DNA of 64,000 bases from contig JAAERX010000153.1 in NCBI GenBank assembly GCA_024229935.1, positions 24,554 to 88,553 on the forward strand. Reading direction: 5' to 3'. Source of the DNA: Gammaproteobacteria bacterium. Lineage in GTDB: Bacteria > Pseudomonadota > Gammaproteobacteria > Steroidobacterales > GCA-2729495. Both the position numbers and the translations under genes were made by a program. Positions 1 to 49,212 of the stretch are shown in pieces (the stretch's first letter is position 1; each line of letters starts with the position of its first letter). The notes below the pieces were generated by a model, which had not been told where the DNA came from, did not search any database, and saw nothing but the letters and a program-made list of their open reading frames with translations.

Positions 1-2267
1 GAATTGCGCAGATCATAAGGGTGCAGGGAAGCGCCATTCAGCAAAGCCCCAAAAATATCCATGACGGCCGCATCAAAACCATAGGGTGGAAGCAAACTGA
101 GCCTGTCAGTCATGCCAATATGTACTGCATTTGTATAAGTGCGGCAGTGATGCAGAACGTTCCGATGTGTCTGCATAACCCCCTTTGGGGTTCCGGTAGA
201 GCCAGACGTAAATAGAATGTATGCAAGTGTATCGGGTGCAATGCTGAGATCAGGGTTTGCAATATCAGCGGATGCATTAGGATCGAGTTCTACGATGCCC
301 AGCCCCTCATGTACCAGTTCATCCGCCAGGCTTCTGTGCTGAGCATCTGTAACAATCGCACTTAGCTTTGCTTCAGAACTAATCTGCTCATGACGTGCTG
401 TCGGGGCTTCCGGATCCAGCGGCACGTAGGCCATCCCAGCCTTAAGCACACCAAACAGACCCGCCAACATTGGCACATCCTGACCCACCAGCAGACCTAC
501 CCGCTGCTCACCATCACCAACCAGCGTACGCAGATCTTGCGCAACTTTATTAGCCTTTGAATTGAGTTGTGCATAGGTCCAACTCACCTCAGCAGAATGC
601 GCCACAAGCCTGTCGCCATGAGCACACACCTGCGCCTCAAAACGTTTAACTATGGATTGCTCTATTTCACTCGCAGGAAACTCTATAAAAATATTACCGG
701 GTTTTGCCGCAGTTTCAGCTGCCTGATGCCGAAGCAGATCCTGTTCATCAGACAAAGGCAATGCACCGATGCGCTGCAGAGAATCGGCTGCTATTCCTTC
801 GAGCATCGTAACAAGGCCGCGTGCCATCTCCTCGATGGTCAACCTGTCAAAAAGATCGGTGTTGTATTCAAATTCCAGCGCGAGACCCTGCTCACCGACA
901 TCAACAGAAAGCGCCAGATCAACCTTGGCCGTCGCACGCTCCACATGATCAAAATCTACATCCAAACCATGCCATTCGAGCGCACCACCGTTCTGGGTCC
1001 GTAAATTAAATAACACCTGAAACAACGGAGAGTGGCTGGGCTCTCGCTCGGGCCGTAATTCCTCCACCAGTTTTTCAAATGGCAAATCCTGATGGTCATA
1101 AGCAGAGAGCGTCACCTTGCGCACCCTCTCTAACAATTCTATGAATGTAGGGTTGCCTGTAATGTTTGTGCGCAACACCAGTGTATTGAGAAAAAAACCA
1201 ATAACAGATTCAAGCTCAGTGTGCTGCCTGCCCGCAATGGGCGTACCTATGACAACATCTTCAGTGCCGGCATAACGCGCGAGTAACACATCAAAGGCCG
1301 CCTGCATCAGCATAAACATACTGGCGCCCTGCGCTTGTGCTATTGCCTGCAACCTGCCCGTAAGCTCTTTAGGAACTTTGAATTTTACGTGATCACCAAC
1401 ATAGGTTTGTATAGCCGGACGTGGTCGGTCGGTTGGTAATTCCAGTAGCGGTGGGGCATCTGCAAGCGTATCCCGCCAGTAACTTATCTGACGATCAAGC
1501 TCTGCACCTTCCAGCCAGGCTCTTTGCCAGACTGCAAAATCAGCATATTGCACCGGCAGTTTCTGCAGCTGTGCAGACTTACCTGTGCAATGAGCCGCAT
1601 ACAGGAGGCTCAGCTCCTGGAACAAAATCGACATCGACCAGCCATCAGAAACAATATGATGAATATTAATCAATAGCCGATAATCATTAACAGCAGTCTC
1701 CAGCAGATAAACCCGGAGCAGCGGCCCCTTACTAAGATTAAATGGCAGCGAGGACTTTTTAACCAACCAGTCTGCCAGCCACGAATCCGTGGCGTCATGC
1801 TGTGTTTCCTGCTCAACTAAAATTTTGAATGAGCTGTCGATAACCTGCAACGGCATCGCTCCTTCAGATGCAAACCGGGTCCGCAAGGACTCATGCCGGG
1901 CTACAAGGTCATCAATTGCCGCCTGCAGGGCCGCGATATTGAGTTCACCCTTAAGACGCATCGACCATGGCATGCTATAGGTTGAACTACCGGGCTCCAG
2001 TTCATCCAGAAACCAGAGGCGTTGTTGTGAAAATGAAGCCGGTAGAGGCTGGTCACGATCGGCCGAGGTTATAGCCGAGCCCTGCTTCGCCACTGAGGCC
2101 TGGGCAGCAAGCAGAAAAGCGATGATATCCTGCTTTTGTATTTTCAGCTCAGCACGCAGTTCATCAGACAAACTGCCTTTGGGCGCCTGCAGGCGTAACT
2201 CGTCGTTATCCAGGTAAAGCCTGCCACCCAGATCACTGATTTTAGCTATGAGCTCCGCTGGACTCAT
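1..2267 (-). CDS. Nonribosomal peptide synthetase, N-terminal part (TubC-C-A..., runs off window)
   Basis: This gene is absent from the ORF track because it is open at the left edge. I read about 755 residues from the ATG at 2267. An N-terminal ~50-residue TubC-type docking domain begins MSPAELIAKISDLG. It is followed by a condensation domain with an intact HHxxxDG motif (HHIVSDGWS, about residue 209) of the LCL type, and by the first part of an adenylation domain (LFTSGSTGTPKG, about residue 690; pocket start FDAAVMD). The ATG overlaps the TGA of the upstream synthetase as ATGA, so the two are very probably translationally coupled. The A domain closely resembles the second A domain of the preceding protein and may use the same substrate. 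The rest of the A domain, the carrier protein and any thioesterase lie outside the window. Confidence 0.93.
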   Translation of the reverse strand, partial: MSPAELIAKISDLGGRLYLDNDELRLQAPKGSLSDELRAELKIQKQDIIAFLLAAQASVAKQGSAITSADRDQPLPASFSQQRLWFLDELEPGSSTYSMPWSMRLKGELNIAALQAAIDDLVARHESLRTRFASEGAMPLQVIDSSFKILVEQETQHDATDSWLADWLVKKSSLPFNLSKGPLLRVYLLETAVNDYRLLINIHHIVSDGWSMSILFQELSLLYAAHCTGKSAQLQKLPVQYADFAVWQRAWLEGAELDRQISYWRDTLADAPPLLELPTDRPRPAIQTYVGDHVKFKVPKELTGRLQAIAQAQGASMFMLMQAAFDVLLARYAGTEDVVIGTPIAGRQHTELESVIGFFLNTLVLRTNITGNPTFIELLERVRKVTLSAYDHQDLPFEKLVEELRPEREPSHSPLFQVLFNLRTQNGGALEWHGLDVDFDHVERATAKVDLALSVDVGEQGLALEFEYNTDLFDRLTIEEMARGLVTMLEGIAADSLQRIGALPLSDEQDLLRHQAAETAAKPGNIFIEFPASEIEQSIVKRFEAQVCAHGDRLVAHSAEVSWTYAQLNSKANKVAQDLRTLVGDGEQRVGLLVGQDVPMLAGLFGVLKAGMAYVPLDPEAPTARHEQISSEAKLSAIVTDAQHRSLADELVHEGLGIVELDPNASADIANPDLSIAPDTLAYILFTSGSTGTPKGVMQTHRNVLHHCRTYTNAVHIGMTDRLSLLPPYGFDAAVMDIFGALLNGASLHPYDLRN

Positions 2268-5200
2268 ATGGAGATATCCTCCATATCCTCACCTTCCAGA
2301 TTTAGTGGAGCTGCACCTGCAGCCAAGCTGAATGCGTCCACGGCAACAGCAAGGGATGCAACACTCGCATAATCAAAAATATACATGAGGGGCAGTTCTG
2401 CATTAAGTGTATTCCTGATTCTTGCAACAAGCTGTGTAGCAAGCAGTGAATGACCTCCCAAAACGAAGAAATTATCGTTAATACCTACTTTATCCAACTG
2501 CAGTATATCTGCCCATATCTCAGCCAGAGCCTCTTCGGTCGGTGTACCCGGTGCGACATAGTTATCCCCGCTCTCCCATTCAGGTGCCGGTAGCGCCTTG
2601 CGGTCTATCTTACCATTCGGAGTCAGGGGCAGTTCATCAAGCTGCATGAAGGCGGCAGGAACCATGTATTGTGGCAAGCTTGCGTATAGTTGCTCACGCA
2701 AGCTATTTACTTCAAGATCCGGCTCAGCAGAAGTCAGGTAACACACCAAACGTTGATCACCAGGCAGATCTTCCCGTAGCAGCAGCACGGCCTGATCAAC
2801 GCTATCACAATCACGCACAGCCGCTTCAATTTCACCCAATTCAATGCGGAAGCCACGTAACTTCACCTGGAAGTCGGTACGTCCAAGTACCTGAATGCTG
2901 CCATCCGGAATAAATTTTGCTAAATCCCCGGTACGATACATCCGACCACCAGAAACACTGACAAACGTATCTGCCACAAAACGATCAGCTGTTAAATCAG
3001 GGCGGTCACGGTAGCCGCGCGCCAAACCTTCTCCACCAATAAAAAGTTCACCCGCCACACCAACCGGCACCGGTTGTAACTGTTCATCAAGTATATACAT
3101 GCTCGTATTATAGATAGGCCGGCCAACCGAGATCACAGGTTCTGCAGGGTCAAAACGATGACAGGAAGACCAGATTGTCGTCTCCGTGGGTCCATACATG
3201 TTCCAAACTCCACTCGTGGCTGCATGTAGTTGTTCCGCAAGCTCCCGGTCCAGCGCTTCACCACCACACAACACAGTGAGACTTTTGGAGCCTTGCCAAC
3301 CCGTCTGCAGCAACATACGCCAGGTTGCCGGCGTTGCCTGCATCACTGAAATAGCAGCATCTCCCAGCAATGCTTTTAGCTCAAAGCCATCAGCGGCCTG
3401 CTCACGGGTTGCCAGCACCACCGTAGCACCCACACTCAATGGCAACAGCAACTCCAATACAGAAATATCAAAACTCAGCGTGGTCACTGCCAGCAGACGA
3501 TCCGCCCCGGTCAAACCGGGTGTACTTGCCATGCTGTTGAGGAAGTTAACAACCGAGCGGTGTTCTAACTGAACACCTTTGGGCTTACCCGTTGAACCCG
3601 AGGTATAGATTACATAGGCGAGGTTATCGGCTTGCATACCGGTATTTACAGGCGCTTTGTCATCACTCACATTAAGCGGCCCAAGTGCATCAACACAAAT
3701 CAGCTCTGCTGTAGCAGCCGGAATACTCTCAACCAGAGATGTCTGAGTAATAACTACCGGCGCACCTGAATCTTCCAGCATGTAGGCAATACGGTCTTCA
3801 GGGTACGCAGGATCCAGTGGCAGGTAAGCACCACCCGCTTTATGCACGCCCAAAAGACCAACCATCATCTCAATTGAGCGCTCCAGACATAAACCCACCA
3901 GTACGTCAGGGCCGACACCGGATTCACGCAACCGGTGGGCAAGCTGGTTCGCTCGCCGATCCAGTTCTACATAGCTTAATGAAGTACCACCACACTCCAG
4001 CGCAACTGCCTCTGGCACAAGAGCAACCTGCTCTGCAAATAAATCCACCAGCGTTGTATCACGCGGGTAGTCGAACCCCGTGTCATTCCAGTCAACCAGT
4101 AACTGTTGCCGCTCCTGCTCCTGCAGCAATGGCAGTTCGGCAATGTGTACATTCGGGTGCGCAGCCACACCTTCAAGCAACATCACAAAATGATCAAGCA
4201 TGCGCTCTATCGTGACTGCATCAAAAATATCCTTGCTGTATTCAAGGTGAACATTCAGACCATCAGGCTGACTTGTCAACGACATAAACAAGTCAAACTT
4301 GGCAGTTTGAAAATCAACTTCAACCATTTCCAATTGCAGGTCGGGCAATTCACCAGGGCTTGCCGCTTGCGTCACGACTGTAAACATGACTTGAAATAAT
4401 GGCGAGTGACTGGTGTCCCTGACAGGCTGTAACTCTGTCACCAGCTGCTCAAATGGCAGATCCTGATGCGCATATGCATCGAGTGTGTTGGCTTTAATTT
4501 GCCGGAGAAATTCAATAAAGGTCGGGTCCCCGCTCACATCCGCACGTAAAACCAACATATTCAGGAAAAACCCGATGAGGCCTTCAAGTGATGATTGCTT
4601 ACGACCCGTTACTGGCGTGCCGATGACAACATCTGTCTCACGGCTGTAGCGCGCCAGCAAAATATCAAACACTGCCTGGAGCACCATAAATAATGTAGCG
4701 CCCTGCTGGTGACCAATGCGTTTTAATGAATCATTTAATTTAGCTGGTAAAAAGCGGTTAACAGCACCGCCCTCAAAACTTCTTTGTAGCGGGCGTGGTC
4801 TGTCAATCGGCAACTCAATGACTGCCGGTATGCCCGCAAGCTGATCACACCAATACTGAAGCTGTCGTTGTGACTCTGCACCACTTAATAACTGTTGCTG
4901 CCAGAAAGCGTAATCCGCATATTGAATCGGAAGATCTGGCAATGACTCAGATTCCAGCCCACAGTGTGCTCGATAAAAGCTGAGGAAGTCCCGATACATA
5001 ACTTCCATAGACCAAACATCAGCAATGATGTGGTGAATAAGGATGACAAACACATAACTGTCATCGCTGACATGCAATAACCGAACTTTAAACAACGGCC
5101 CCTGTGCAAGGTCATAGGGCTCATTGACCAGCTCTATAAGTGTGCTGCGTACAAGCTGATCATCTGCGCCAGGCATCTCAAGCACTTCAACAGGAACATC

Positions 5201-8200
5201 GAGGTGCTCAGCAATTAACTGCAGCGCCTCTCCCTTCCTGTCAATAAAAGTTGAACGCAGAGTTTCATGACGAGCCACCAGATCATTTACAGCAGACTGT
5301 ATTGCATCCAGCCGCAGCGCCCCGGTCATTCGTACCGGTGCAAACATATGATAAGCAGGGTTATCACCTTCAAGTTGATCGAGGAACCAAAGGCGTTGCT
5401 GGGCAAATGATAAAGGAGCCCCATCTTTATGCGGTACAGGCACAATATTGCTAACACCGGCCTCAGCACCATCCAGCGAAACTGCAAAATCTGCCACGGC
5501 TGGATACTTGAAAAGCATACCTATGCCGGGCTCGATATTCAGAGCATCCCGGATACGCGAGATCAATTTTGTTGCAAGTAATGAATGACCACCAAGCAGG
5601 AAGAAATCATCATGGACACCAACCCGATCAACACCTAATACATCAGCCCACAAGCCGGCCAGAATTTCTTCAGTAGGTGTGCGCGGCGCTACATAGCGTT
5701 TTTCATCGTACTGAATTTCTGGCAACGGTAATGCCAGCCTGTCGAGCTTGCCGTTCGGCGTGAGCGGAATAGCATCAAGCTCAACAAATGCAGCTGGAAT
5801 CATGTACTCAGGCAATAAGCCCTGCAGGTAATGACGTAATGTACTGCCATCCGGCGACATTTGTTCTGCACTAACAAAATAGGCCACCAGCCGTTCTTCA
5901 TCCGGCTGATCCTTGCGTAGAATGACCACGCATTGCTCAACAGTAGAATACCCGGCCAGCGCTGCTTCAACCTCTCCAGGCTCTACTCTGTTACCGCGGA
6001 TCTTAAGCTGTTGGTCTCGTCTGCCAACAAACACGATTTGCCCATCTGGCAGGTAACGGCAAATATCACCCGTACGATAATTTTTCTCATCGCTACCGGG
6101 TACGGGAATAAAGGTGCTTGCCGTCAGGTCTGCATCCCCCCAGTAACCCGGACTGGTATATTCACTTCGAATACAAAGCTCGCCATGCAATACCGCTGAC
6201 TCACCCTCAGGAACTACTAACTCTACATTTGCACCATCTACAGGCAGCCCCAAGGGTAGTTTTGCGCCAACAACCTGGGTTTCATGATCAGCAAAGCAGA
6301 CCATTGCAATTGAGTATTCAGTAGCGCCCATCAGGTTGGAGAAAATGACATCCGTGCCAAATCGATCCTGAAATAAATTCAGATCCGTCAACCGGGCTTC
6401 TTCACCACCCAGAACAACAATGCGAATGGCAGTCAATTCTTCGGCAGCTGGCTGCTCAAATAAAAACCGGAATACTGTCGGTGTTGAATGGAAGACTGTG
6501 ACCTGCTGTTCTGCCAGCTGCTGGCGTATATCAGCTGCAGAAACCTGTTCCCTTATATCAACAGGACAAAGACATGCGCCATTAAGTAAGGCGCCATAAA
6601 TATCCATGACTGCCGCATCATAACCATAGGGAGCAAACAAGCTCAGCCTGTCATCACTGTTGATATGCATTGCATCGCTGTATGTACGAATGTGATGCAA
6701 AGCATTTCTATGTGTCTGAGTAACCCCTTTGGGCGTCCCCGTCGAACCAGAAGTAAAGAGAATATAAGCCAGCGAATCCTGATCAATAAGCAACTCAGGA
6801 TTTGCTGCATCACTCTCGGCAGGCTGATCAGCTAATACAATAGTTAGTGCAACAGCTGCATTACGCACCAACTCACCTGCAAGACTCTGTCGTTGGGCAT
6901 CACTTACGATGACAGCAAGCTCCGCCTCTGCAAATATTTTCTGCAGGCGGCTGACCGGCGCTTTCGGGTCAAGCGGCACATAGGTCAGCCCGGCCTTTAA
7001 AGCGCCAAGCATCCCGGCCAACATCGGTGCATTTTGCCCCAGCAGCAAACCCACACGTTCACCTGGCTCAAAACCACTGGCAATTAATTCATGCGCAACC
7101 TTGTTAGCACGCACGTTCAGCTCCGCATAACTCCAGCTTTCTGAGTCACTCAAAACCACACAAGCCTCTGGTGTCAGCTGTACTTGTTGCTCAAAACATG
7201 AGGCTAACGATGAACTGGTCGTTAGCTCCTGAAAAGGCTGGGATACATTAGACGGACCAGTCTGAGCAGTAATCTTAAGTGACGTATCTTCCAAACGCAG
7301 GAGGTCTGCCACTTGCAGGTCAGTCGCCGCAACCACCCGGTGCAGCATCTGTCTGAATTGTTCAAGCAATTGCTCAATTGCAGCAGCTGTGTAGCAGCCT
7401 GTGTCATATGACAATCGCAATACCAGCTGCTCACTGATACTGACAGCCGCCGCTAAAGGTAAACTCGTCCAACCCCGTGATTGCATATCTGTAACACGCA
7501 ATGTGTTGCGATCGGACCAAAGTGAACTCGCATCCGGGTAGTTTTCAAAAATTAAGACAGAATTAAATAAGGCAGAACCCTGGGGTACGCTCGACCAACC
7601 CTGCACATCCACCAGAGATATATACTCATGTTGGCGCGAGGCAAGTTGTAACTCCTGAATGCCCGCCATCCATTCCTGCAGGGAAACATCTGGCTGTACT
7701 TTGATGCGCACCGGCAATGCATTTAGAAATAAGCCAACAATGGATTCAACATTCTTCAGTTCTGCTGGTCGCCCTGAAGTGGTGGCACCAAACAAAACAT
7801 CATCTTCACCGGTGTAACGACTAATCAACAGCGCCCAGATACCCTGCACCAGAGTATTTGCGGTAAGCCGCATAGTCTTGGCAAGTTGCCGAATCTGCGC
7901 AGTCTCAGCAGGTTCAAGGCTCATAAAACACTTTGCGTAGCTACTGGCATTATCAGTGCCGGGAAATTCTTTACTGGCGGCAGGTAAAGGGGTTGGCGCT
8001 GCAAACCCCTGCAGGGTTTCTTGCCAAAATTGCCTGGCTTCTTCTTTATCCTGATCCTGCAACCAGGCAATATAATCCCTGTATGAACGCGCTGGTGACA
8101 GCGTTAGCTGCTTGCTCTGAAGCGCAGCTTCATAGGCCTGAAAGAGTTCATCCAGCACCACCGGTATCGACCAGCCATCTATAACAATATGGTGATGACT

Positions 8201-11200
8201 CCAGACAAAGCGGAAATCCTGCTCACCAAACTGGACAAGTAACAACCGCATTAAGGGTGCGCTGCTAAGTTCATACCCCCGCTTCTGATCTTCAACAAGC
8301 CAAAGTTCAAGCTGCTGTTCCTGATCAGCAGAACCCAGATGACTCCAATCTAGGAATTGCAGCGGAATTTCTACCTGCTTGTGAACTATAGTGAGTGGCT
8401 CATCCAGTCCACTTTGCAGGAAGGATGAACGTAATGATGTATGCCTTGCAACCACAGTTTGCCAGGCCTTCTCAAACGCGCCTGGGTTAAGGTTCCCCTC
8501 AAGGTTCCATATCACCTGCGTGAGATAAACCTGACTTGTATGGTCTGCATCATCGCCAGCAAATGCGCTGTGGAACAGCATGCCATGCTGCATAGGTGTG
8601 ACCGGATAAATATCTTCAAGGTCAGGGCACTCAGTGAGGAGCGCATCAACAGCAAACTGATCCAATTGCACCAATGGAAAGTCAGACGGTGTGAAACCAG
8701 AATTGCCTGGCTCAACACAATGCTCAACCAGGGAAGCAAGCTCATGTATGAAGGCATTAGCAATTCGTTCTATTGTTGCTGATTCATGCAGGTTTTCACT
8801 GTATGAAAAGCCCATCTGCAATTTGCCATCAAAAACGCTGCCATTGATATCAATCAGATGTGACCGCTGACGAGTCAACGCCTGATCAGGACCTGTCTGG
8901 CCTGCGGCCGGAACAAAAGCAGAATCTTGGGAAAAAGTCTGATCAAACTGCCCAAGATAGTTAAACAAAATAGGCGCAGCAGGGAGCCTGGCAAAAACAT
9001 CATGCACTTCGGCAGAGTGATGCAGATAACGCAATAGCCCAAAAGCAAAACCATTTGCCGGAAGTGCCCGCAGTTGCTCCTTGATACTTTTGATTCGATC
9101 AGAGGCCGTAGCATTTGGTGCAACATTTATGGAGACGGGATAAATCGTGGTAAACCAACCCACTGTACGTGAAACATCCAGATCAATTTCTTCATCACGC
9201 CCATGCCCTTCCATATCAATAAGCACAGCCCCCTGACCCGTCCAGTCCGATACGGCACTACCCAGCGCCGTTAGCAGCAGGTCATTGACCTGAGTCCGAT
9301 AAGCCTGCGGCGCCTCCTGTAATAATTGCCGCGTAGTCTGCTCATCCAACGATACTGTGACAGTTCGTGCGGAATCGACCAGGTTCTCCCCGTCCGCATG
9401 ATCAACCGGCAAAGTGCACTCAGGCCAGGACTGTTGCTGCCAATAACTCAGCTCAGACTTTGCCCTGTCTGTGCTGGCGTAATGCTGTAACTGCTCTGAC
9501 CAGGCTTTAAACGAACTGCTCTTCGCCGGAAGTTCAGGCTGCTTATTCTGACTAATAGCCGCATAAGCGGATTCAATATCTTCAAGCAGTATTCGCCAGG
9601 AAACCCCATCAACAACAAGGTGATGAATAACAATCAACAGTCGGTCGGGCCGGTTACTTCCAAGCTCAAAGCCAATTGTTTTGATCAGCAATCCAGCATT
9701 AAGATCAAATGAGGCCTGCAAACGCATAGCCTCCTCATACATGCGCTGGTCCTGATCAGCCGGGGACAATTCATGCAAATCAACATGGGCATGAATAGAC
9801 CTGGCTTGGGGCTCACCTATAGTTTGCAACCACTGGCTATCAACAAACTTGAAAGAGCTACGCAAAGCATCATGCTGCCGCACAATTGCCTGAAATACTG
9901 ACTCAAGCAAATCAGCATCAAGTCTGCCCTCATGGTCTAATAAGGTTGATTGATTAAAATACTGTTTATCTACAGATGATTGTTCAAAAAACCAGTGCTG
10001 CACGGGTATTAAGGGGAAGCTGCCGGTAACCAGTCCCTGCTCAGCAGCTACCACAACCACACTGCCAGCAACGTCAGCAAGCTCAGCAATTGTCTGATGC
10101 TTAAATACTTGTTTTGGCGTGAGGTGTAAACCAGCTTTAGCAGCACGGGCAATAATCTGAATACTCAGAATAGAGTCACCACCTAGCTCAAAGAAATTAT
10201 CGTGTATACCCACACGCTCTATATGTAATAAGTCAGACCATATCTGGGCAAGCACACGTTCATGATCAGTGCCTGCCGGGATGTATTCATCGGCAACATC
10301 ACGCCGACCTTCCGGTTCTGGCAAGGCCTTGCGGTCAACCTTGCCATTGGCCAGTAAAGGGAATTCCTGCAAGGGCACAAACACAGCCGGCACCATATAC
10401 TCAGGTAACTGCTGCTTTAAGGCGTCACGTAATTGCGGGATATCCGCTGCATTACCATCTGCAGCTGTAACATAGGCGACCAGTCGTTTGTTGCCCGCTA
10501 CATCTTCATGCAACATCACCAGGCTTTGCTTTACACCGGGCAGTGCATCAAGACTTGCCTCAATTTCCCCCAGCTCTATGCGAAACCCACGTAACTTAAC
10601 CTGGTGGTCTATACGGCCAAGAAATTCGATCGCCCCATCATTACGCCAGCGCACCAGGTCACCACTGCGGTAAATGCGTGCATCGCTGGTGGAACTAAAG
10701 GGATCCACAATAAAGCGTTCCGCTGTCAGCTCAGGTCGGTTGATATAGCCACGCGCAACCTGCTCACCGGCTATCCATAATTCACCCGCAACACCCACAG
10801 GTGCCATCTGACCATTGGGCTCAACCACATGAATCCGTGTATTAGCAACGGGCCTGCCAATGGGTACAGAAGTGTCCGTGCTATCACGGTCACAAGCCCA
10901 GTAAGTAACATCAATGGCCGCCTCTGTGGGACCGTAAAGGTTATGCAGTTCTGCTGTACCCAACGTTTCAAAAAAACGTGTTTGCAACTCATGTGGTAAT
11001 GCTTCGCCAGAACAGATAACCCGCTTCAGACTGGAACAATTACCGGCATGTGAGTCCTGCAGAAATACCTGCAACATGGACGGCACAAAGTGCATCGTGG
11101 TAACACCATGCTCCTGAATAATATCGGTCAGGTAAGTACTATCCTTGTGCCCGTCAGGACGAGCCATTACCAATGTTGCACCTGAAATCAGGGGCCAGAA

Positions 11201-13390
11201 AAATTCCCATACCGACACATCAAAACTGTATGGCGTTTTTTGCAGAACTTTATCGTCAGGTCCTAACCCATATTCAGATTGCATCCACAACAGGCGGTTA
11301 ACAATCCCGTGGTGTTCATTCATCACACCCTTGGGTCGACCTGTGGAGCCTGAGGTGAAAATAACATAGGCCAAATTATCAGGTTGTGCCTGTTGCGGTG
11401 GGTTGCTATCCGGCTGTTTGGCTAATACCTTAATCGCACTTTCCACGCATAACACTTCAGCTTCATGCCCCGGTAACTGTTCAACCAGCGCTGACTGAGT
11501 CAGCAGCAACCCGATGTCGGCATCCTCAAACATATGAACTAGGCGTTGTTCCGGATAATCTGGATCCAGTGGCACGTAGGCACCACCAGCTTTAATGATG
11601 GCATGTAAGGCCACCACCATCTCCACGGAACGCTCCATATATACACCGACCATGGTATCGGGTGTCACACCCTTGCTGATCAGCCAGTGGGCCAGCTGAT
11701 TAACCTGACTGTTAAACTCCGCATAGGTCAGCTGCTCATGCTCAAAAATAACGGCCAGTGCATCCGGGCTTGCTTCTGCTTGTTGTTCCAGCAAGGTCTG
11801 CAAAGTTGCATCACTTGGGTAATCCACATTGGTGTCATTCCAGCTTGCAAACAACTGCTTGTCATCACTACCGACTAAGGGCAACTCATTAATCTTCACT
11901 GTTGGGTTAGTAACAATGCCATGTAACAAACGTTCAAACTGTTCCAACATACGTTCGATCGTGATGGCATCAAACAAGTCAATGCTGTATTCAATTTCCG
12001 CCATCAAACCATCATGGGTTTCACCCATAGCAAGCGTTAAATCAAATTTTGCCGTACCGTATTCAAACTCCAACCCTGTCAGCTCAAGACCCTGAACAGG
12101 ATCAGCTGAAGCGGGTGCATTCTGCAACATGAATTGCATCTGGAACACAGGTGAGTAACTCATATCACGTGCAGGCTGAAGTGCATCTACCAGCTTATCA
12201 AAAGGTAACTCCTGATGAGCATAAGCATCCAGAGCCGTTGTCTGCACCTGTTTGAGTAGTTCACTGTAACTAGGATTAGCGGACAAATCTGTACGCATAA
12301 CAAGCGTATTAAGGAACAACCCGATAAGTCCTTCCAAATCTGTTTGCTGTCGGCCTGCAATAGGTGAACCAACGACAATATCATTTTGCCCGGAGTAACG
12401 TGCCAACAGCACATCAAAAGCTGCCAGCAAAACCATAAACAAGGTGGCATTATTGCTTCTGGCCAACGCCTTTAAGCTTTCTCGCAAATCAACAGACAGA
12501 AGCCTGCGCATCCGCGCTCCACGATAACTTTGCTCACTGGGCCGTGGCCTGTCAGCAGGTAATTCAAGTATAGGCGGCGCCCCACATAGCTTATCTGTCC
12601 AGTACTTAAGCTGACGCTCAAGCTCTGCTCCCTGCAAGTAGTCACGTTGCCAACATGCATAATCTGCAAACTGCAGAGGTAACTCTGGCAGTTCAACTGT
12701 CTCACCAGCACATTCAGCAAAGTAAATACTGAACAGCTCAGTCTGCAACAGATCCAGAGACCATGCATCCGAGATGATATGGTGCATGACCATCATCAGC
12801 ACATGATCATCTTCAGCCAGCTCAACCAGGCGAACACGCAGCAATGGTCCTTGCGCTAGTGGAAAAGGTTCTCCAGACCATTCCTCAAGCTGCATTCTTA
12901 CAGCAGCATCATCTGCACCCGGCATAGACACCTTCTCAACTACCAGATCCATACTGTTGAGAATTTTTTGTTCTGGTTCAGCTTCGGTTTTTAGGAATAC
13001 TGTACGCAGACTTTCATGCCTGGCTATCAGTTTACCCAAAGAGCTTTGCAGGGCATCAGCATTAAATTGACCTTTAATCCGCATTGCCCATGGAATATTG
13101 TAAATTGAGCTACCGCCCTCAAATTCTTCCAGAAACCAGATACGTTGCTGGGCAAATGACAAGGGAATGGTCTGACTTCGGTCAGCATGAGGGATATTGA
13201 TTTCCACTGCGTTCTGAGAGGCATCTGCAACAAGCAACAACTCAAGCAGTTCAGCTTTACTGTCTTTAAGCTGTTCGTGGAGTTCAGCTGTCAGCACTCC
13301 TTGTGGTGCGCTCACGCGCAACTCACCGTCCTCCACCCGCAGGCGGACGCCGAGTTTGCTCAGCTGCCCAAGAAGTTCAGCCGCACTCAA
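2264..13390 (-). CDS. Trimodular nonribosomal peptide synthetase (TubC-C-A-T-E-C-A-T-C-A-T)
   Basis: A 3708-residue assembly-line enzyme. Domains in order: TubC docking (1-52); C1 (HHIISDAWS ~205); A1 (SGSTGRPKG ~682); T1 (GGDS, Ser1073); epimerase (HHLVVDGVSW ~1257); C2 of DCL type (HHHIVIDGWS ~1733); A2 (~2215); T2 (GGHS, Ser2603); C3 (HHIIADVWS ~2787); A3 (~3265); T3 (GGHS, Ser3648). Aligning by eye to GrsA, the A1 pocket reads DVWHISLID(K), a serine code, and A3 reads DILQLGMIW(K), one change from the classic glycine code. A2 reads about DAMHVGLIA(K), which I cannot assign. GGDS before the epimerase and a DCL domain after it agree with a D-Ser first residue. The TTG start at 13390 is supported by AAGGAG 8 nt upstream. 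The acidic C-terminus (EGEDMEDISI) looks like a docking tail for the TubC domain of the next protein. There is no thioesterase. Confidence 0.96.
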   Translation of the reverse strand: MSAAELLGQLSKLGVRLRVEDGELRVSAPQGVLTAELHEQLKDSKAELLELLLVADASQNAVEINIPHADRSQTIPLSFAQQRIWFLEEFEGGSSIYNIPWAMRIKGQFNADALQSSLGKLIARHESLRTVFLKTEAEPEQKILNSMDLVVEKVSMPGADDAAVRMQLEEWSGEPFPLAQGPLLRVRLVELAEDDHVLMMVMHHIISDAWSLDLLQTELFSIYFAECAGETVELPELPLQFADYACWQRDYLQGAELERQLKYWTDKLCGAPPILELPADRPRPSEQSYRGARMRRLLSVDLRESLKALARSNNATLFMVLLAAFDVLLARYSGQNDIVVGSPIAGRQQTDLEGLIGLFLNTLVMRTDLSANPSYSELLKQVQTTALDAYAHQELPFDKLVDALQPARDMSYSPVFQMQFMLQNAPASADPVQGLELTGLEFEYGTAKFDLTLAMGETHDGLMAEIEYSIDLFDAITIERMLEQFERLLHGIVTNPTVKINELPLVGSDDKQLFASWNDTNVDYPSDATLQTLLEQQAEASPDALAVIFEHEQLTYAEFNSQVNQLAHWLISKGVTPDTMVGVYMERSVEMVVALHAIIKAGGAYVPLDPDYPEQRLVHMFEDADIGLLLTQSALVEQLPGHEAEVLCVESAIKVLAKQPDSNPPQQAQPDNLAYVIFTSGSTGRPKGVMNEHHGIVNRLLWMQSEYGLGPDDKVLQKTPYSFDVSVWEFFWPLISGATLVMARPDGHKDSTYLTDIIQEHGVTTMHFVPSMLQVFLQDSHAGNCSSLKRVICSGEALPHELQTRFFETLGTAELHNLYGPTEAAIDVTYWACDRDSTDTSVPIGRPVANTRIHVVEPNGQMAPVGVAGELWIAGEQVARGYINRPELTAERFIVDPFSSTSDARIYRSGDLVRWRNDGAIEFLGRIDHQVKLRGFRIELGEIEASLDALPGVKQSLVMLHEDVAGNKRLVAYVTAADGNAADIPQLRDALKQQLPEYMVPAVFVPLQEFPLLANGKVDRKALPEPEGRRDVADEYIPAGTDHERVLAQIWSDLLHIERVGIHDNFFELGGDSILSIQIIARAAKAGLHLTPKQVFKHQTIAELADVAGSVVVVAAEQGLVTGSFPLIPVQHWFFEQSSVDKQYFNQSTLLDHEGRLDADLLESVFQAIVRQHDALRSSFKFVDSQWLQTIGEPQARSIHAHVDLHELSPADQDQRMYEEAMRLQASFDLNAGLLIKTIGFELGSNRPDRLLIVIHHLVVDGVSWRILLEDIESAYAAISQNKQPELPAKSSSFKAWSEQLQHYASTDRAKSELSYWQQQSWPECTLPVDHADGENLVDSARTVTVSLDEQTTRQLLQEAPQAYRTQVNDLLLTALGSAVSDWTGQGAVLIDMEGHGRDEEIDLDVSRTVGWFTTIYPVSINVAPNATASDRIKSIKEQLRALPANGFAFGLLRYLHHSAEVHDVFARLPAAPILFNYLGQFDQTFSQDSAFVPAAGQTGPDQALTRQRSHLIDINGSVFDGKLQMGFSYSENLHESATIERIANAFIHELASLVEHCVEPGNSGFTPSDFPLVQLDQFAVDALLTECPDLEDIYPVTPMQHGMLFHSAFAGDDADHTSQVYLTQVIWNLEGNLNPGAFEKAWQTVVARHTSLRSSFLQSGLDEPLTIVHKQVEIPLQFLDWSHLGSADQEQQLELWLVEDQKRGYELSSAPLMRLLLVQFGEQDFRFVWSHHHIVIDGWSIPVVLDELFQAYEAALQSKQLTLSPARSYRDYIAWLQDQDKEEARQFWQETLQGFAAPTPLPAASKEFPGTDNASSYAKCFMSLEPAETAQIRQLAKTMRLTANTLVQGIWALLISRYTGEDDVLFGATTSGRPAELKNVESIVGLFLNALPVRIKVQPDVSLQEWMAGIQELQLASRQHEYISLVDVQGWSSVPQGSALFNSVLIFENYPDASSLWSDRNTLRVTDMQSRGWTSLPLAAAVSISEQLVLRLSYDTGCYTAAAIEQLLEQFRQMLHRVVAATDLQVADLLRLEDTSLKITAQTGPSNVSQPFQELTTSSSLASCFEQQVQLTPEACVVLSDSESWSYAELNVRANKVAHELIASGFEPGERVGLLLGQNAPMLAGMLGALKAGLTYVPLDPKAPVSRLQKIFAEAELAVIVSDAQRQSLAGELVRNAAVALTIVLADQPAESDAANPELLIDQDSLAYILFTSGSTGTPKGVTQTHRNALHHIRTYSDAMHINSDDRLSLFAPYGYDAAVMDIYGALLNGACLCPVDIREQVSAADIRQQLAEQQVTVFHSTPTVFRFLFEQPAAEELTAIRIVVLGGEEARLTDLNLFQDRFGTDVIFSNLMGATEYSIAMVCFADHETQVVGAKLPLGLPVDGANVELVVPEGESAVLHGELCIRSEYTSPGYWGDADLTASTFIPVPGSDEKNYRTGDICRYLPDGQIVFVGRRDQQLKIRGNRVEPGEVEAALAGYSTVEQCVVILRKDQPDEERLVAYFVSAEQMSPDGSTLRHYLQGLLPEYMIPAAFVELDAIPLTPNGKLDRLALPLPEIQYDEKRYVAPRTPTEEILAGLWADVLGVDRVGVHDDFFLLGGHSLLATKLISRIRDALNIEPGIGMLFKYPAVADFAVSLDGAEAGVSNIVPVPHKDGAPLSFAQQRLWFLDQLEGDNPAYHMFAPVRMTGALRLDAIQSAVNDLVARHETLRSTFIDRKGEALQLIAEHLDVPVEVLEMPGADDQLVRSTLIELVNEPYDLAQGPLFKVRLLHVSDDSYVFVILIHHIIADVWSMEVMYRDFLSFYRAHCGLESESLPDLPIQYADYAFWQQQLLSGAESQRQLQYWCDQLAGIPAVIELPIDRPRPLQRSFEGGAVNRFLPAKLNDSLKRIGHQQGATLFMVLQAVFDILLARYSRETDVVIGTPVTGRKQSSLEGLIGFFLNMLVLRADVSGDPTFIEFLRQIKANTLDAYAHQDLPFEQLVTELQPVRDTSHSPLFQVMFTVVTQAASPGELPDLQLEMVEVDFQTAKFDLFMSLTSQPDGLNVHLEYSKDIFDAVTIERMLDHFVMLLEGVAAHPNVHIAELPLLQEQERQQLLVDWNDTGFDYPRDTTLVDLFAEQVALVPEAVALECGGTSLSYVELDRRANQLAHRLRESGVGPDVLVGLCLERSIEMMVGLLGVHKAGGAYLPLDPAYPEDRIAYMLEDSGAPVVITQTSLVESIPAATAELICVDALGPLNVSDDKAPVNTGMQADNLAYVIYTSGSTGKPKGVQLEHRSVVNFLNSMASTPGLTGADRLLAVTTLSFDISVLELLLPLSVGATVVLATREQAADGFELKALLGDAAISVMQATPATWRMLLQTGWQGSKSLTVLCGGEALDRELAEQLHAATSGVWNMYGPTETTIWSSCHRFDPAEPVISVGRPIYNTSMYILDEQLQPVPVGVAGELFIGGEGLARGYRDRPDLTADRFVADTFVSVSGGRMYRTGDLAKFIPDGSIQVLGRTDFQVKLRGFRIELGEIEAAVRDCDSVDQAVLLLREDLPGDQRLVCYLTSAEPDLEVNSLREQLYASLPQYMVPAAFMQLDELPLTPNGKIDRKALPAPEWESGDNYVAPGTPTEEALAEIWADILQLDKVGINDNFFVLGGHSLLATQLVARIRNTLNAELPLMYIFDYASVASLAVAVDAFSLAAGAAPLNLEGEDMEDISI

Positions 13391-30111: not shown

Positions 30112-31224
30112 ATGTACATTAACTTCTGGTATCCCATCGCCAAGAGCGAAGACGTCGTTACCTACGAACCTCATCGAGTCAAAGTATTGGGACAGCAACT
30201 GATTGCCTTCCGTGACACCGAAGGCAACGCCCATATACTAAGTGATGTCTGCATCCATCGGGGAGCTGCCCTTGGCAAAGGCTGGGTCAAAGGCAATCAC
30301 GTAGTGTGCCCGTATCACGGCTGGCAGTTTGCCGGCGATGGCAAATGCACGCATATTCCGACAGTAGACGAAAAGCAGATCCCCGCCCGCGCCAAAGTTG
30401 ATAGTTACCCGGTACAGGAAAAATACGGCATCGTATTTGCATTCCTTGGCGACCTGCCAGAAGAAGAACGGCCACCACTTCATGAGATTGAGGAATATGA
30501 CAAGGAAGGCTGGCGGGCAAACCGACTGGTTGTATTCGAACTTGATGCCTATTACGAACGTTCCATCGAAAATGGACTCGACCCATCCCACAATGAGTTT
30601 GTACATCCGGCCCAGGGCCGACCAGGCATGCAACCTGATTTTCGTAAAAAGCCACTGGACATGAAAGACGGCCCCTGGGGAAGTGAGTTCCTGGTAAGTT
30701 TTGAGAACCAGCTAAGTGACTCACGGGCGTTAAGTGAGGAAGCCAAACTTGAACATGAGGTCACTGCAGGGTCCGGTTATGTCGGTCCCAATCAGATGAT
30801 CACATGGATCTGCTTATCCAAGGATCAGGTATTTCATCAGTACTTCTTTGAGGCACCGGTTGATGAGGGCCGTACGCGGATTTTCTTCGTCAACATGCGC
30901 ACCTTCATGCTTGAACCTGAAAATGACAGACGCCTGGTTAATATCAACCTGACTGTCGCCCAGGAAGATATTGATCTGTTAGCAACACTTGATCCGGTCG
31001 GTACACCCAACAATCCTTCTGACGAGGTGCTGGTACCATCCGATGGTGCTGTCATTAGTTACAGGCAACACCTGAAAACCTGGAAAGAGAAAGGCTGGTG
31101 TATAGATATGGAGACACTGAATGCAAAGCGCCAGAATATGGCCTTCGCAATCCCCTGTCCGGACAGACGCACCTCGGGAAACTGGGTACTAAGCCCGGTA
31201 CCTCTGTTTCCAACTGCTGAGTAA
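30112..31224 (+). CDS. Rieske [2Fe-2S] aromatic-ring oxygenase, oxygenase component (copy 1)
   Basis: A 370-residue terminal oxygenase. The Rieske cluster ligands are C47-x-H49 (CIHRGAAL) and C66-x2-H69 (CPYHGW). The mononuclear iron site is in ENGLDPSHNEFVHP, with bridging Asp157 and His160/His165. Known relatives hydroxylate or O-/N-demethylate aromatic or polycyclic substrates with electrons from a reductase; no ferredoxin or reductase gene is next to it. It closely resembles the product of the gene at 54699 (same MYINFWYPI start, same domain lengths). Substrate unknown. Confidence 0.92.
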   Translation: MYINFWYPIAKSEDVVTYEPHRVKVLGQQLIAFRDTEGNAHILSDVCIHRGAALGKGWVKGNHVVCPYHGWQFAGDGKCTHIPTVDEKQIPARAKVDSYPVQEKYGIVFAFLGDLPEEERPPLHEIEEYDKEGWRANRLVVFELDAYYERSIENGLDPSHNEFVHPAQGRPGMQPDFRKKPLDMKDGPWGSEFLVSFENQLSDSRALSEEAKLEHEVTAGSGYVGPNQMITWICLSKDQVFHQYFFEAPVDEGRTRIFFVNMRTFMLEPENDRRLVNINLTVAQEDIDLLATLDPVGTPNNPSDEVLVPSDGAVISYRQHLKTWKEKGWCIDMETLNAKRQNMAFAIPCPDRRTSGNWVLSPVPLFPTAE

Positions 31225-34678: not shown

Positions 34679-36952
34679 TCAGTCTTTTATAGCTCTAATC
34701 ACCCGCCACGGAGCTAATGGCATTTCAGTGACCTGATCACCAATAGCATTGGTGACTGCATTGGCGATGGCCTGCATGGTACACACGATAGGACCCTCCC
34801 CCACTTCCTTGGCACCAAAAGGACCATTGGGATCAATACTTTCAACAATAATATGATCAACTTCCGGCATTTCAAAAGCTCGTGGCATTTTGTAATCCAG
34901 CCGGGAAGGATTCATGACCTGGCCATCTTCCATAAGCGTTTCTTCATACAGCACTTGTGACATGCCACTAAATATCTGGCCATCAATCTGACCCTCAACA
35001 ACACGAGGGTTAATAGCCCGTCCAACATCATGGGATGCAGTCATCTTATCAACAGTCACCACACCAGTGCCCGGGTCTACGGTTACTTCAGCAATCTGAG
35101 CACCAAAGGAATAGGCCATGGTGCCTTTCTCCAGTGGTGAGTTATAAAAACCACGACCCATCACAAAGCGACCTTCACGACTGTGCAGTGTTTTGTACAC
35201 CACTTTTGCAAACGCAATTGCTTTATCTTCCTGCCCCTCCGGATAAACCTTTCCATCACGGAACACCAGCTGTGCCTCATCCACTTCAAGAATATTTGCA
35301 GCCGTCTTTGCCAGCTGATCACGTGCATCAATGGCCGCATTCTTGGTGGCATTACCTGTATTAAACGTACCACGCTGGGTAAACGCACCAATATCCAGTG
35401 GGTCCGTGTCCGTGTCACCCGATATCACTGTAATATCTGTTGGCAATATACCCAGCACTTCGGCACAGATAATAGCCATAGTGGTGTGGGAACTCTGCCC
35501 CATATCGGGCAAACCAACAAACAGGGAAGCTTTACCGTCTTCGGTAACTTTCACAAAAGCAGCCGAAGTATCGTGCTTATACAAGCCCTTGGCACCGGAA
35601 GCCATCGCACCAATGCCAATGCCTATACCTTTAAACTTAGGCAGCTTGCCGTACTTGTCATTCCAGCCCGCCATTGCAGCCGTCTTTTCGATGCATTCTT
35701 TCAGACCGCAACTGGCGTAATGGGCACCTTCCATGGTGGTATGCCCTTCTTCAACGGCATTCAGCAGATTAAATTCCACCGGGTCCATACCCATTTCACG
35801 CGCCAGAGCATCAACATGCTGACCAAGAGCAAACTGAAACTGAGCTATACCGCCACCGTGATGAAAGTAATAGGGCAAATGATTGGTATGCACCAGGCGG
35901 CCACGGTAACGGGATGCCTCTATCGGATACAGAGCATGAATGTATTTTGAAGTCAGCAAAGTCACAATCATCTGTGACTCAATGTACGCACCGGTATCAA
36001 ATAACAGATCAGCCTCAATAACTTTAAGCTTGCCATCTTTACTGGCACCAGAACGAAGCTTGTAAATAACCTTGCCACCGGCACGACACATGATGAACTC
36101 TTCATCACCGGCAGCCCGTAGTCGCACCGGCTTACCTGCCTTACGTGATAACAATGCTGCCAGGAAATGATGCGGCCGGGTTGAAGTACGGCCGGTAAAA
36201 CCACCGCCTGTGTTTAATGTCAGCAAACGCACATCGCTGGCTGGCAGCTTGAAACCTGCAGCCAGACTTTGCTGAAACAAATGTGCCGTTTGTGTGGGCG
36301 TCCACATTTTGAGTTTGCCTGGCTTGGTGAAGTCAGCAACACACACATGGTATTCAGCATAACAATTATGACTGGGATTGGTTATATAAGTGTCTTCACG
36401 AATAACGTCACACTCAGCAAAGACAGCATCTGGATCGCCATGTTCCTCTTCCTGCTGCCAGCCAATATTTAGTGCGGCTTTTTCATGCAACTGCGGAGCA
36501 TCTTCTTTTAATGCTTTTTCCACATCCAGCAACTCAGGCAGCCGTTCATACTCAACCTTAATAAGTGCAGCTGCCTGAGCAGCAATTTCTTCACTCATGG
36601 CTGCCACCGCAGCCACTTCATGACCTACATGGGTCACATTTTCAGTGGGCAACAATGGTTGACTGATACCTATCCAGATATCCTTGGCATCTTCAGGTGT
36701 AATCACTGCTTTTACACCGGGTAGTGCTTCAGCCTCACTGGTATCAATACTGATAATACGGGCATGTGGATACGGACTGCGCACCACCTTGGCAAATAAC
36801 ATGCCGGGCAGCCGCACATCATCAGCAAAAATAGACCGACCACTAACCTTATCGGCACCATCAAGGCGCGACCAGTTCTTACCTACAACTGCAAGGTCTT
36901 CTTTAGTTCGTGACTTAGTTGGCACATTATTTTTAATCTTAGCTTTCGCCAT
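34679..36952 (-). CDS. Molybdenum hydroxylase large subunit (4-hydroxybenzoyl-CoA reductase-like, alpha)
   Basis: A roughly 757-residue xanthine-oxidase-family molybdopterin subunit. It has the N-terminal hammerhead domain (GRSIFADDVRLPGMLFAKVVRSPYPHARI), Moco-binding segments (GGGFTGRTSTRPHH; ISGDTDTDPLDIGAFTQRGTF) and the C-terminal catalytic glutamate region (GPFGAKEVGEGP). I use the ATG at 36952 (MAKAKIK), preceded by GAGG, which overlaps the end of the 2Fe-2S gene by 14 bp. The last gene of the operon, and possibly 4-hydroxybenzoyl-CoA reductase alpha given the middle-subunit insertion. Confidence 0.88.
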   Translation of the reverse strand: MAKAKIKNNVPTKSRTKEDLAVVGKNWSRLDGADKVSGRSIFADDVRLPGMLFAKVVRSPYPHARIISIDTSEAEALPGVKAVITPEDAKDIWIGISQPLLPTENVTHVGHEVAAVAAMSEEIAAQAAALIKVEYERLPELLDVEKALKEDAPQLHEKAALNIGWQQEEEHGDPDAVFAECDVIREDTYITNPSHNCYAEYHVCVADFTKPGKLKMWTPTQTAHLFQQSLAAGFKLPASDVRLLTLNTGGGFTGRTSTRPHHFLAALLSRKAGKPVRLRAAGDEEFIMCRAGGKVIYKLRSGASKDGKLKVIEADLLFDTGAYIESQMIVTLLTSKYIHALYPIEASRYRGRLVHTNHLPYYFHHGGGIAQFQFALGQHVDALAREMGMDPVEFNLLNAVEEGHTTMEGAHYASCGLKECIEKTAAMAGWNDKYGKLPKFKGIGIGIGAMASGAKGLYKHDTSAAFVKVTEDGKASLFVGLPDMGQSSHTTMAIICAEVLGILPTDITVISGDTDTDPLDIGAFTQRGTFNTGNATKNAAIDARDQLAKTAANILEVDEAQLVFRDGKVYPEGQEDKAIAFAKVVYKTLHSREGRFVMGRGFYNSPLEKGTMAYSFGAQIAEVTVDPGTGVVTVDKMTASHDVGRAINPRVVEGQIDGQIFSGMSQVLYEETLMEDGQVMNPSRLDYKMPRAFEMPEVDHIIVESIDPNGPFGAKEVGEGPIVCTMQAIANAVTNAIGDQVTEMPLAPWRVIRAIKD

Positions 36953-37439
36953 GATTAACCTCACGTTCTCTAAGTACACTAGCCGCTTCTTTAATGGCTT
37001 TTTTAACCTTGATATGACCCGTACAACGACAGATCACTCCAGCCATCGCCTCATTAATATCAGTTTCACTTGGGCTGGTATTCACATCCAGCAAAGCCTT
37101 GGCAGACATAATCAGGCCTGGTGTACAAAAACCACACTGCACAGCCCCATGCTCAAGAAAGGATTTTTGTATTGGATGCAGTTCATTGCCCTCTTCCACA
37201 CCTTCAACAGTTGTTACCGAGCGCCCATCCCATTCCACCGCTAGTGCCAGACAGGACAGAATTACTTCACCCTGTTCGCCATTCACTGTGCACACACCAC
37301 AACTACCGGCTGTACAACCACGCTTGGTACCAGTCAAGTTCAGACTGTCACGCATCACTTCCAGCAAAGTCTGATGGGGGGAAACAGCAACCTCATACGG
37401 GTCGCCATTCACTGTTAATGCTATCAGTTGTTTCGCCAT
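36939..37439 (-). CDS. Molybdenum hydroxylase [2Fe-2S] subunit (gamma)
   Basis: A 166-residue electron-transfer subunit with two 2Fe-2S clusters. The plant-ferredoxin type uses C42, C47, C50 and C63 (GCTAGSCGVC...LSC). The second, helical cluster uses C102, C105, C137 and C139 (QCGFCTPG...CRCTGH). It passes electrons between the Moco and FAD subunits. It starts 2 bp after the FAD-subunit stop and overlaps the large-subunit start, so it is translationally linked. Confidence 0.94.
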   Translation of the reverse strand: MAKQLIALTVNGDPYEVAVSPHQTLLEVMRDSLNLTGTKRGCTAGSCGVCTVNGEQGEVILSCLALAVEWDGRSVTTVEGVEEGNELHPIQKSFLEHGAVQCGFCTPGLIMSAKALLDVNTSPSETDINEAMAGVICRCTGHIKVKKAIKEAASVLREREVNHGES

Positions 37440-37441
37440 AA

Positions 37442-38431
37442 CTAACCTCGCACCCGCTGGTCTCTAAGCTCCAGGAGAGCATCCTTAACCAGTACCTTAA
37501 TCAGACGTTTTTTATAAAAAGTCGGAGTAAATAGATTGGTTACCTCCAACAAAGCCCGGCGTGCAACATCTGCAGCTGCATCAATAGCTTCATCCGTAAG
37601 TCCGCCTTCGAGCAGAATTTTTTCAGCCTGAGGCATAACCCGGGGCTCAGGCGCAACCGAACCCAGCACCAGGGACACAGACTCCGGTTGTTCATTGCTG
37701 CCAATAACAGCAGCAGCAAAAGTTCCAGTCGCAAAATCCAGCCCCTCTCGTTGTGAGAGCTTCCTGAATACTGACCGACCTTTGGCCGGCGGCAAAACAA
37801 CTGCCGTCAGTACTTCACCAGGCTTAAGAACCGTATGTTCAACACCGTCATTCTGATAAAACTCCCGCATCGGCACAATTCGTTCACCTGTGTGGCTCGC
37901 CAGTACGACACTGGCATCCAGCGCCATGAGAATTGGGCCGCTATCCGTACTGTTTAAGGCATGGCACTTAGGTGCTGATTTAATAACATGACACTGCTCG
38001 GCGTCCGTTTTAAAACAACCTTCACGGGTATCACGCCAAATTTTAGATTGATTGGTATACCAGCAGCGTGTTTCCAAACAAATATTGCCACCAATTGTGC
38101 CCATATTGCGTACATGACGGGAACCAACAACAAAAATTGCAGCCCGTAATGCCGGGTAACATTCTTTAATTATCGTATGTTCAGCAAGATGGGTTAATGT
38201 GCATGCAGCTCCAACACGAAGACTGCCATCATCGAGTTTCTCAAGTTGCTGCAACTCCGATAAACCATTTAAGCTTAAAAGATAAGCAGGCCCCTCCAGG
38301 CGAAATTTCATATTAAGCAACAGGTCAGATCCACCAGACATGATGGCAATCTTGTCGCCATGCTCGGCAAGGGCTGCCAGACCTTCCGCAAGGCTCTTGG
38401 GCCGGATGTATTCAAACTGGGGTAATTGCAT
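37442..38431 (-). CDS. Molybdenum hydroxylase FAD subunit with extra 4Fe-4S-type insertion (beta)
   Basis: A 329-residue FAD-binding subunit (PCMH-like: IAIMSGGSDLLLNMKF; RNMGTIGGNICLETRCWY). After GGNICLE there is an insertion of roughly 40 residues with cysteines 123, 139, 147 and 156 (TRCWYTNQ, EGCFKT, EQCHVI, PKCHAL). This spacing and context match the extra 4Fe-4S loop that sets 4-hydroxybenzoyl-CoA reductase beta apart from xanthine dehydrogenase relatives. First gene of the three-gene operon; AAGGA lies about 10 nt before the ATG. No CoA ligase is nearby, so the substrate is inferred. Confidence 0.88.
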   Translation of the reverse strand: MQLPQFEYIRPKSLAEGLAALAEHGDKIAIMSGGSDLLLNMKFRLEGPAYLLSLNGLSELQQLEKLDDGSLRVGAACTLTHLAEHTIIKECYPALRAAIFVVGSRHVRNMGTIGGNICLETRCWYTNQSKIWRDTREGCFKTDAEQCHVIKSAPKCHALNSTDSGPILMALDASVVLASHTGERIVPMREFYQNDGVEHTVLKPGEVLTAVVLPPAKGRSVFRKLSQREGLDFATGTFAAAVIGSNEQPESVSLVLGSVAPEPRVMPQAEKILLEGGLTDEAIDAAADVARRALLEVTNLFTPTFYKKRLIKVLVKDALLELRDQRVRG

Positions 38432-42604: not shown

Positions 42605-42606
42605 GC

Positions 42607-43779: not shown

Positions 43780-43880
43780 TAATTATTATTCCTTTAGATA
43801 CGGCTTTGACCACGGCTCTATACATTTCATTTATCACGGCTGAAACTGATCCTACAACATACCCGACAGTAGATATTCCT

Positions 43881-43902
43881 GTAGGAGTGGTTTTAACCGT
43901 GA
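43881..43902 (+). repeat. REP-like palindromic element
   Basis: GTAGGAGTGGTTTTAACCGTGA, between the PadR and adaptor genes. It has the GTAGGAG head and a short GGTT/AACC stem. Family members at 38641, 54138 and 55965 share the head and vary in the stem. Confidence 0.55.
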
Positions 43903-43921
43903 CCTGTTAATAGCAATTTAA

Positions 43922-48962: not shown

Positions 48963-49212
48963 CACTGCATTCTAGTAGCAGAGGCTAGTACCAGCAATAA
49001 TTAATAGCTGATGCCAGAGACCAGAACGGATTGCCAATCTTACAGGCCAGCACTTCAATCCTTATAAGTAGAGCACCTATAGAAAAAACAAGCCTTTAAA
49101 TACACTTAAAAAATGAGATCTGGCCCAAAAAAACTCCGGCAGAAAAATTCAACACATTAACTTGGCCAGAAATATGCGCATCTAACATCGGCGATTCAAT
49201 TAGTAACACCCA

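Follow-up and report, generated by a model that had tools for sequence, protein, structure and literature searches.

A Probably Relocated Terminal Synthetase Pair Is Proposed to Complete a 17-Module Nonribosomal Peptide Assembly Line in a Gammaproteobacterium

Introduction

Two overlapping minus-strand open reading frames at the left end of a 64,000-nucleotide stretch of gammaproteobacterial DNA encode nonribosomal peptide synthetases (NRPSs), P0001 and P0002, that probably constitute modules 13–17 of a 17-module assembly line, relocated together with a thioesterase gene and most likely fed in trans by a third synthetase, prot5; modules 1–12 reside on two other contigs of the same genome, C76 and C38. 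The stretch, hereafter the window, covers positions 24554–88553 of the 88.5-kb contig C152 (JAAERX010000153.1) in a genome of 2.71 Mb.

A conserved and so far undescribed NRPS repertoire in a bacterial family with genomes of only 1.7–3.9 Mb would provide a new peptide source. A terminal NRPS that has moved, with the intact order preserved in congeners, further provides a clean case for asking whether a split assembly line can stay functional by docking domains alone. Finally, a distinct clade of adenylation domains, here termed X-type, points to a substrate whose identity one loading experiment could reveal.

Architecture of the two synthetases

P0001 (window 2264–13390, minus strand, as are all NRPS features below) has a TTG start and comprises 3708 aa. 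P0002 (C152:20248–26820, 2190 aa) overlaps it by four bases; its first 755 aa lie within the window (1–2267, open at the window edge) and the remainder to its left. Pfam assignments combined with hand reading give the order TubC_N–C–A(Ser)–T–E–C(DCL)–A(X)–T–C–A(Gly)–T for P0001 and, over the whole contig, TubC_N–C–A(X′)–T–C–A(Val)–T for P0002, with Pfam counting one TubC_N, three C, three A, three T and one E domain in the former, and one TubC_N and two each of C, A and T in the latter. The core motifs are intact in all modules, with HHxxxD in each C or E domain, A3, A5, A7, A8 and A10 in each A domain, and GG(H/D)S in every T domain. With repeated C–A–T modules and intact core motifs, both proteins are, as judged from sequence, modular NRPSs. 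The same reading found no thioesterase domain within either of them; a separate thioesterase gene (C152:19413–20195, 260 aa, PF00975) is located on the opposite strand, 52 bases past P0002.

P0001 opens with a TubC-type N-terminal docking domain (13235–13378; PF18563, whole-protein E 7e-15), followed by C1 (11855–13174), which Pfam and the C-domain tree identify as an elongating (LCL-type) condensation domain. The first module is completed by A1 (10316–11791), with pocket code DVWHISLIDK, a carrier domain of the GGDS type (T1, 10073–10255; Pfam and motif) and an E domain (8696–10003) that carries HHLVVDG and is predicted from motif and tree to convert the residue to the D form. The next condensation domain, C2 (7307–8623), groups with other post-E (DCL) domains with a support of 1.0. 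An E domain after a GGDS-type T domain and before a C domain of the DCL clade is the arrangement, read here from sequence motifs and tree, by which a D-residue is incorporated. There follow A2 (5732–7219; alignment, tree and AlphaFold), an X-type domain with code DAMHVGLIAK and A5 motif MGATE; T2 (5483–5671; Pfam and motif); C3 (4136–5473; Pfam and tree); A3 (2576–4063), with code DILQLGMIWK; T3 (2321–2518; Pfam and motif); and an acidic C-terminal tail, GEDMEDISI (2267–2305), the presumed partner of the TubC-type docking domain of P0002 (2112–2255; Pfam). In P0002, C4 (738–2045; Pfam and tree) precedes the first part of A4 (3–650), an X-type domain cut at the window edge whose full code on the contig is DAMHVGGLAK; A5, further left, has DAYWLGGTFK. 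We take the codes of A1 and A3 to be the standard serine and glycine codes, and that of A5 to be valine-like. The pocket mapping is checked by the identical alignment columns, which for other A domains of the family yield the standard codes of Pro, Orn, Ala, Cys and beta-Ala.

These readings bear out the expectation, set down in an earlier note on this DNA, of serine at A1 with an epimerase and a matching DCL condensation domain after it, and of glycine at A3. The note had also counted four A domains and read the system as a Ser–X–Gly–X′ line. Left of the window, the contig holds the rest of P0002, the thioesterase gene and a fifth, Val-like A domain. The residue order stands; the self-contained line is not supported, with a Val module and a thioesterase at its end and, at its start, an elongating C1 behind a docking domain.

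The X-type adenylation domains

A2 and A4 share 51% identity, against 33–36% between either of them and A1, A3 and A5, so their resemblance is not due to chance. Within the window only the start of the A4 pocket is visible, and there the shared pocket start noted earlier is confirmed (YGYDAAVMD in A2, YGFDAAVMD in A4). The accompanying GATE motif is peculiar to A2 and not clade-wide, A2 having NLMGATEY and A4 having NGLGPSE. A tree of 213 A domains unites all X-type domains of the bacterial family in one clade (support 0.994), characterized by its own sequence features, DAAVMD and FHSTPTVFR, with a few distant A domains from other phyla falling outside it. The earlier note had named membership of A2 and A4 in a common characterized clade as evidence against an unusual type; the tree places them in a clade of their own.

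At least 21 of the family's 37 genomes carry X-type domains, which are spread over three kinds of NRPS line: the line of the window, the giant line as organized in congeners, and an acid-starter line of two or more proteins with the order acid starter–(beta-Ala code)–(Orn code or DIESVGTIVK)–X–(Gly)–X. Of 369 genomes sampled across the class, a single one from outside the family (G151) has such a domain (47%, code DAQHVGGLAK). The AlphaFold model of A2 adopts the canonical A-domain fold (pLDDT 88). Searches of the PDB by sequence and by fold returned general A-domain matches only, at about 30% identity; the best match in a plasmid collection was 37.5% identical, at background level; in the literature searched, the X pocket codes appeared only in unrelated papers; and a literature search for NRPSs in oxygen-minimum-zone gammaproteobacteria returned none. 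Tree, PDB, plasmid collection and literature together thus yielded no characterized member of the clade. A–T proteins of Streptomyces and Halothiobacillus (code DSQHAGxxAK) were considered as characterized relatives, and at about 38–41% identity and outside the family clade proved uninformative.

Several observations concern more distant relatives and other lines. The free DSQHAGxxAK A–T protein, distantly related to the X clade, is common to loci of Streptomyces, Umezawaea and Halothiobacillus (L019, L020, L021, L028 and L033), where it is followed by a large polyketide-synthase-like protein and then a C domain, apparently as one conserved pathway. Isolated X-like A domains are found in a Halothermothrix MAG, a Verrucomicrobiota genome and a Ramlibacter MAG (L017, L015 and L029), with codes DAMHVGGVTK, DAMHVGGIAK and DAMHVGGLA; X-like domains in other phyla suggest either occasional wide transfer or an old clade. 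The window's genome itself (G000) holds a second X-type NRPS line (C126:3381–9581 and C38:28939–32172), with an acid-type starter A domain that contains an inserted methyltransferase-like stretch and with a beta-alanine-type code, VDWAISTDVK; relatives of this line occur family-wide, with Orn and Gly modules.

We infer that A2 and A4 select one kind of building block, X. Close to an even chance may be given to X being an ordinary amino acid (glutamate, glutamine or a hydroxyphenylglycine-like residue) admitted through a divergent pocket, in which case the clade would be new in sequence only. The published codes for glutamate (DAWHFGGVDK) and of the hydroxyphenylglycine type (D..HLGLLCK) agree with the X code at about 5–6 of 10 positions: D235, H278, G301 and K517 are common to all three, A236 and G322 are shared with the glutamate code as well, and in the X pocket D235 is the sole acidic residue, with His at 278. 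Against this reading, positions 239, 299 and 331 (M/Q239, V299 and A/V/T/G/N331 in the X type) differ from both codes, the X domains are set apart in their own clade by DAAVMD and FHSTPTVFR, without a close solved or characterized relative found, and their codes are absent from the relevant literature that was searched.

Orthology to the terminal protein of a giant line

In two congeners, the uncultured gammaproteobacteria G001 (Arabian10_MAG_56, JASLMV010000001) and G003 (SS_bin_65, JABDLC010000102), the ortholog of P0001, prot6, is the last protein of a contiguous NRPS series and directly follows prot5. Six genes encode this giant line in G001, whereas G003 has prot2 fused to prot3. Prot1 reads A–T–Cy–A(Cys)–oxidase, its first A domain having the code G.WS.STGQ; prot2 reads C–A(Gly)–MT–T; prot3 is Pro-like; prot4 reads Ser–Gly–Ala(MT)–Pro–(DAFTTALVWK)–E–Ser/Gly; and prot5 reads Pro–Pro. 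Prot6 starts Ser–E–X and continues Pro–Pro–Ala–Pro in G001 and Gly–Gly–Gly–Val in G003. The oxidase of prot1 and the MT domain of prot2 were located by scanning the window's genome; for prot4, G001 and G003 show the MT motif itself, and the window's genome only an insertion of the same size.

Each segment of the first two modules of P0001, as well as C3, finds its best match in G001 prot6, with identities of 62% for TubC plus C1, 73% for A1T1, 49% for E, 59% for C2, 55% for A2T2 and 54% for C3. A1T1 is likewise 73% identical to G003 prot6, as compared with 56–63% for non-orthologous Ser modules, and A5T5 has as its best match the Val module of G003 prot6 (57%, vs. 43% for the next). In the C-domain tree, C1 groups with prot6 C1 of G001 and G003, and C2 with the prot6 C2 domains inside the DCL clade (support 0.998 in each case); in the A-domain tree, A2 groups with A2 of G001 prot6 (0.907). 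Position-specific orthology to prot6 is, by these comparisons, established for modules 1–2, C3 and A5. For C4 and C5 no position-specific ortholog stands out, and the second half appears to have been rearranged, because A4 seems to be a copy of A2. Compared with the convergent thioesterase encoded behind G001 prot6, the C152 thioesterase shows 38% identity over 276 aa; with the thioesterase fused to G003 prot6 the value is 34%.

The window's genome encodes prot1–prot4 on C76, and the end of prot4 together with prot5 on C38, the two contigs sharing an exact overlap of 141 bp. On C38 a nitrilase gene lies 40 bp downstream of prot5. The corresponding gene directly follows prot6 in G003; in G001 a thioesterase and an aminotransferase gene come between prot6 and the nitrilase. 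No prot6 is present at the prot5 locus of the window's genome, and no prot6-like A-domain set other than that of P0001 and P0002 was seen in the genome. With prot5 followed by the nitrilase at 40 bp, prot6 is absent where it would be expected, and C152 holds its counterpart.

An alternative in which P0001 and P0002 form a self-contained line producing acyl-D-Ser–X–Gly–X′–Val, with C1 serving as the starter condensation domain to load an acyl group, fatty or otherwise, appears improbable. It would agree with a cluster that stands alone between unrelated genes, equipped with a thioesterase gene, on an 88.5-kb contig that has no further NRPS genes. However, the neighborhood of the cluster showed no gene for an acyl ligase or acyl carrier, prot5 of the same genome has an acidic tail and no adjoining partner, and C1 itself carries a TubC docking domain. 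In a tree that held no reference starter C domains, C1 moreover nests among elongating C domains together with prot6 C1, for which gene order gives the upstream partner, a combination unlike that of starter-C lipopeptide lines.

Probable relocation and proposed docking of the terminal segment

The preferred reading, a relocated terminal segment of the giant line, is informed by a third congener, G004, whose only observed NRPS line is the family-wide one. There, orthologs of genes from both sides of the NRPS pair on C152 (luciferase-like, 85%; EamA-type, 66%; DEAD helicase, 80%; MFS, 70%) lie within about 22 kb of each other, with no NRPS between them. Because these flanks occur there without the NRPS, C152 represents the genus backbone and the NRPS pair arrived in it; the thioesterase gene of C152, by its identity to the prot6-associated thioesterases of G001 and G003, moved along with the terminal segment. 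This relocation presupposes that two contigs of a 189-contig assembly are correctly built, and the contrary proposal, that assembly or binning has misplaced terminal proteins that truly belong at the prot5 locus or has admitted a contig from another organism, draws on that fragmentation and is very unlikely in view of the prot5–nitrilase junction with its normal 40-bp spacing, C152 flanks that are 66–85% identical to a region of G004, and a completeness of 99.5% with 0.6% contamination.

How the separated proteins might communicate is suggested by their termini. NRPSs of this line that precede a TubC-bearing partner end in acidic-hydrophobic tails (DEGEL, LEEIEI, DEFHI and FEEFSL, with MEDISI in P0001). 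The C terminus of prot4 is basic, and no TubC domain is present in the next protein, prot5; prot5 of the window's genome in turn has an acidic C-terminal tail and no adjoining partner. Short C-terminal tails bind TubC-type docking domains through their last five residues (PMC6195595), and the tail/TubC pattern of the giant line fits this published mode. Such docking motifs are generic, and by themselves do not single out prot5 over prot1–prot3.

Proposed assembly and product

Domain order, pocket codes, orthology, gene locations and the docking-motif pattern can be read directly from the DNA; docking in trans, a joint product and activity of the line are predicted from them. Modules 1–6 would assemble a carboxylic-acid starter, Cys, N-methyl-Gly, a Pro-like residue, Ser and Gly, the Cys probably becoming a thiazole, given the heterocyclization and oxidase domains. 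Modules 7–12 would add Ala (probably N-methylated), a Pro-like residue, a D-residue (DAFTTALVWK), Ser and two further Pro-like residues. Through the acidic tail of prot5 and the TubC domain of P0001, the 12-residue chain would most likely be passed in trans to modules 13–17, where P0001 is predicted to add D-Ser, X and Gly, and P0002 to add X′ and Val, before the separate thioesterase (C152:19413–20195) releases the chain.

A more ambitious proposal combines three elements: that X is a building block new to NRPS products, found in three lines of one small-genome uncultured gammaproteobacterial family; that the 17-module line produces a thiazole-capped, N-methylated, proline-rich peptide; and that the C-terminal third of this peptide is swapped between species by relocating a docking-compatible terminal NRPS. 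We regard it as speculative and rather unlikely as a whole.

Neighboring genes

A QueD/6-carboxytetrahydropterin synthase gene abuts prot1 (G000:C76:35536–35898; L091:15536–15898) and likewise adjoins the giant-line starter NRPS in G018 (G018_C123, 4089–4490); in other genera QueD neighbors the starter NRPS of the family-wide line, and an upstream position relative to the starter NRPS recurs in many family genomes. We considered 6-carboxytetrahydropterin as the starter acid and set it aside: QueD is single-copy in most family genomes and QueC is present, so that QueD probably belongs to the queuosine pathway. The starter acid may possibly derive from a pterin, but queuosine synthesis is the simpler reason for QueD. 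The family-wide NRPS line has a FolE gene downstream and is adjoined by F420-biosynthesis-like genes (CofD, CofE, CofC and FbiC-like, by eye) at about 209–215 kb of G001:C11 (L144) and about 53–58 kb of G017_C24 (L135).

An arylsulfotransferase gene upstream of P0001 was rejected as a tailoring gene, its G001 ortholog (52–53%) residing beside unrelated genes and not beside prot6. The window's contig also encodes three luciferase-like monooxygenases (PF00296; window 47910–48965, and L009:5397–6437 and 10922–11935), possibly F420-dependent; a three-subunit molybdopterin hydroxylase with FAD and Fe-S partners (window 34679–38431); two VanA-type Rieske oxygenases (window 30112–31224 and 54699–55805); and an RND efflux pump with a membrane-fusion protein and a PadR-type regulator (window 39500–44440). 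The named relatives are metagenome-assembled gammaproteobacteria, and from the isolate names at least some family members are probably marine.

Comparison with known systems

The closest counterpart is prot6 of G001 and G003, which shares with P0001 the start TubC–C–A(Ser)–T–E–C(DCL)–A(X)–T at 46–73% identity per segment and which, as in the window's system, has a thioesterase after or in the last protein. Prot6 is a single protein of 6850–7124 aa, whereas here its counterpart consists of two proteins, divided between Gly and X–Val, at another locus. The lipopeptide and pyoverdine NRPSs of Pseudomonas offer a parallel in which one assembly line is encoded at two chromosomal places, an arrangement that appears to hold here as well. 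In contrast to those split loci, the split described here is lineage-specific: the intact arrangement is retained in congeners and the terminal part has moved. At the level of subunit contacts, the TubC/Kj12-type systems (PMC6195595) likewise place an N-terminal TubC_N domain on the acceptor and a short charged and hydrophobic tail on the donor, although the tails of the giant line are mostly acidic at positions −4 and −5.
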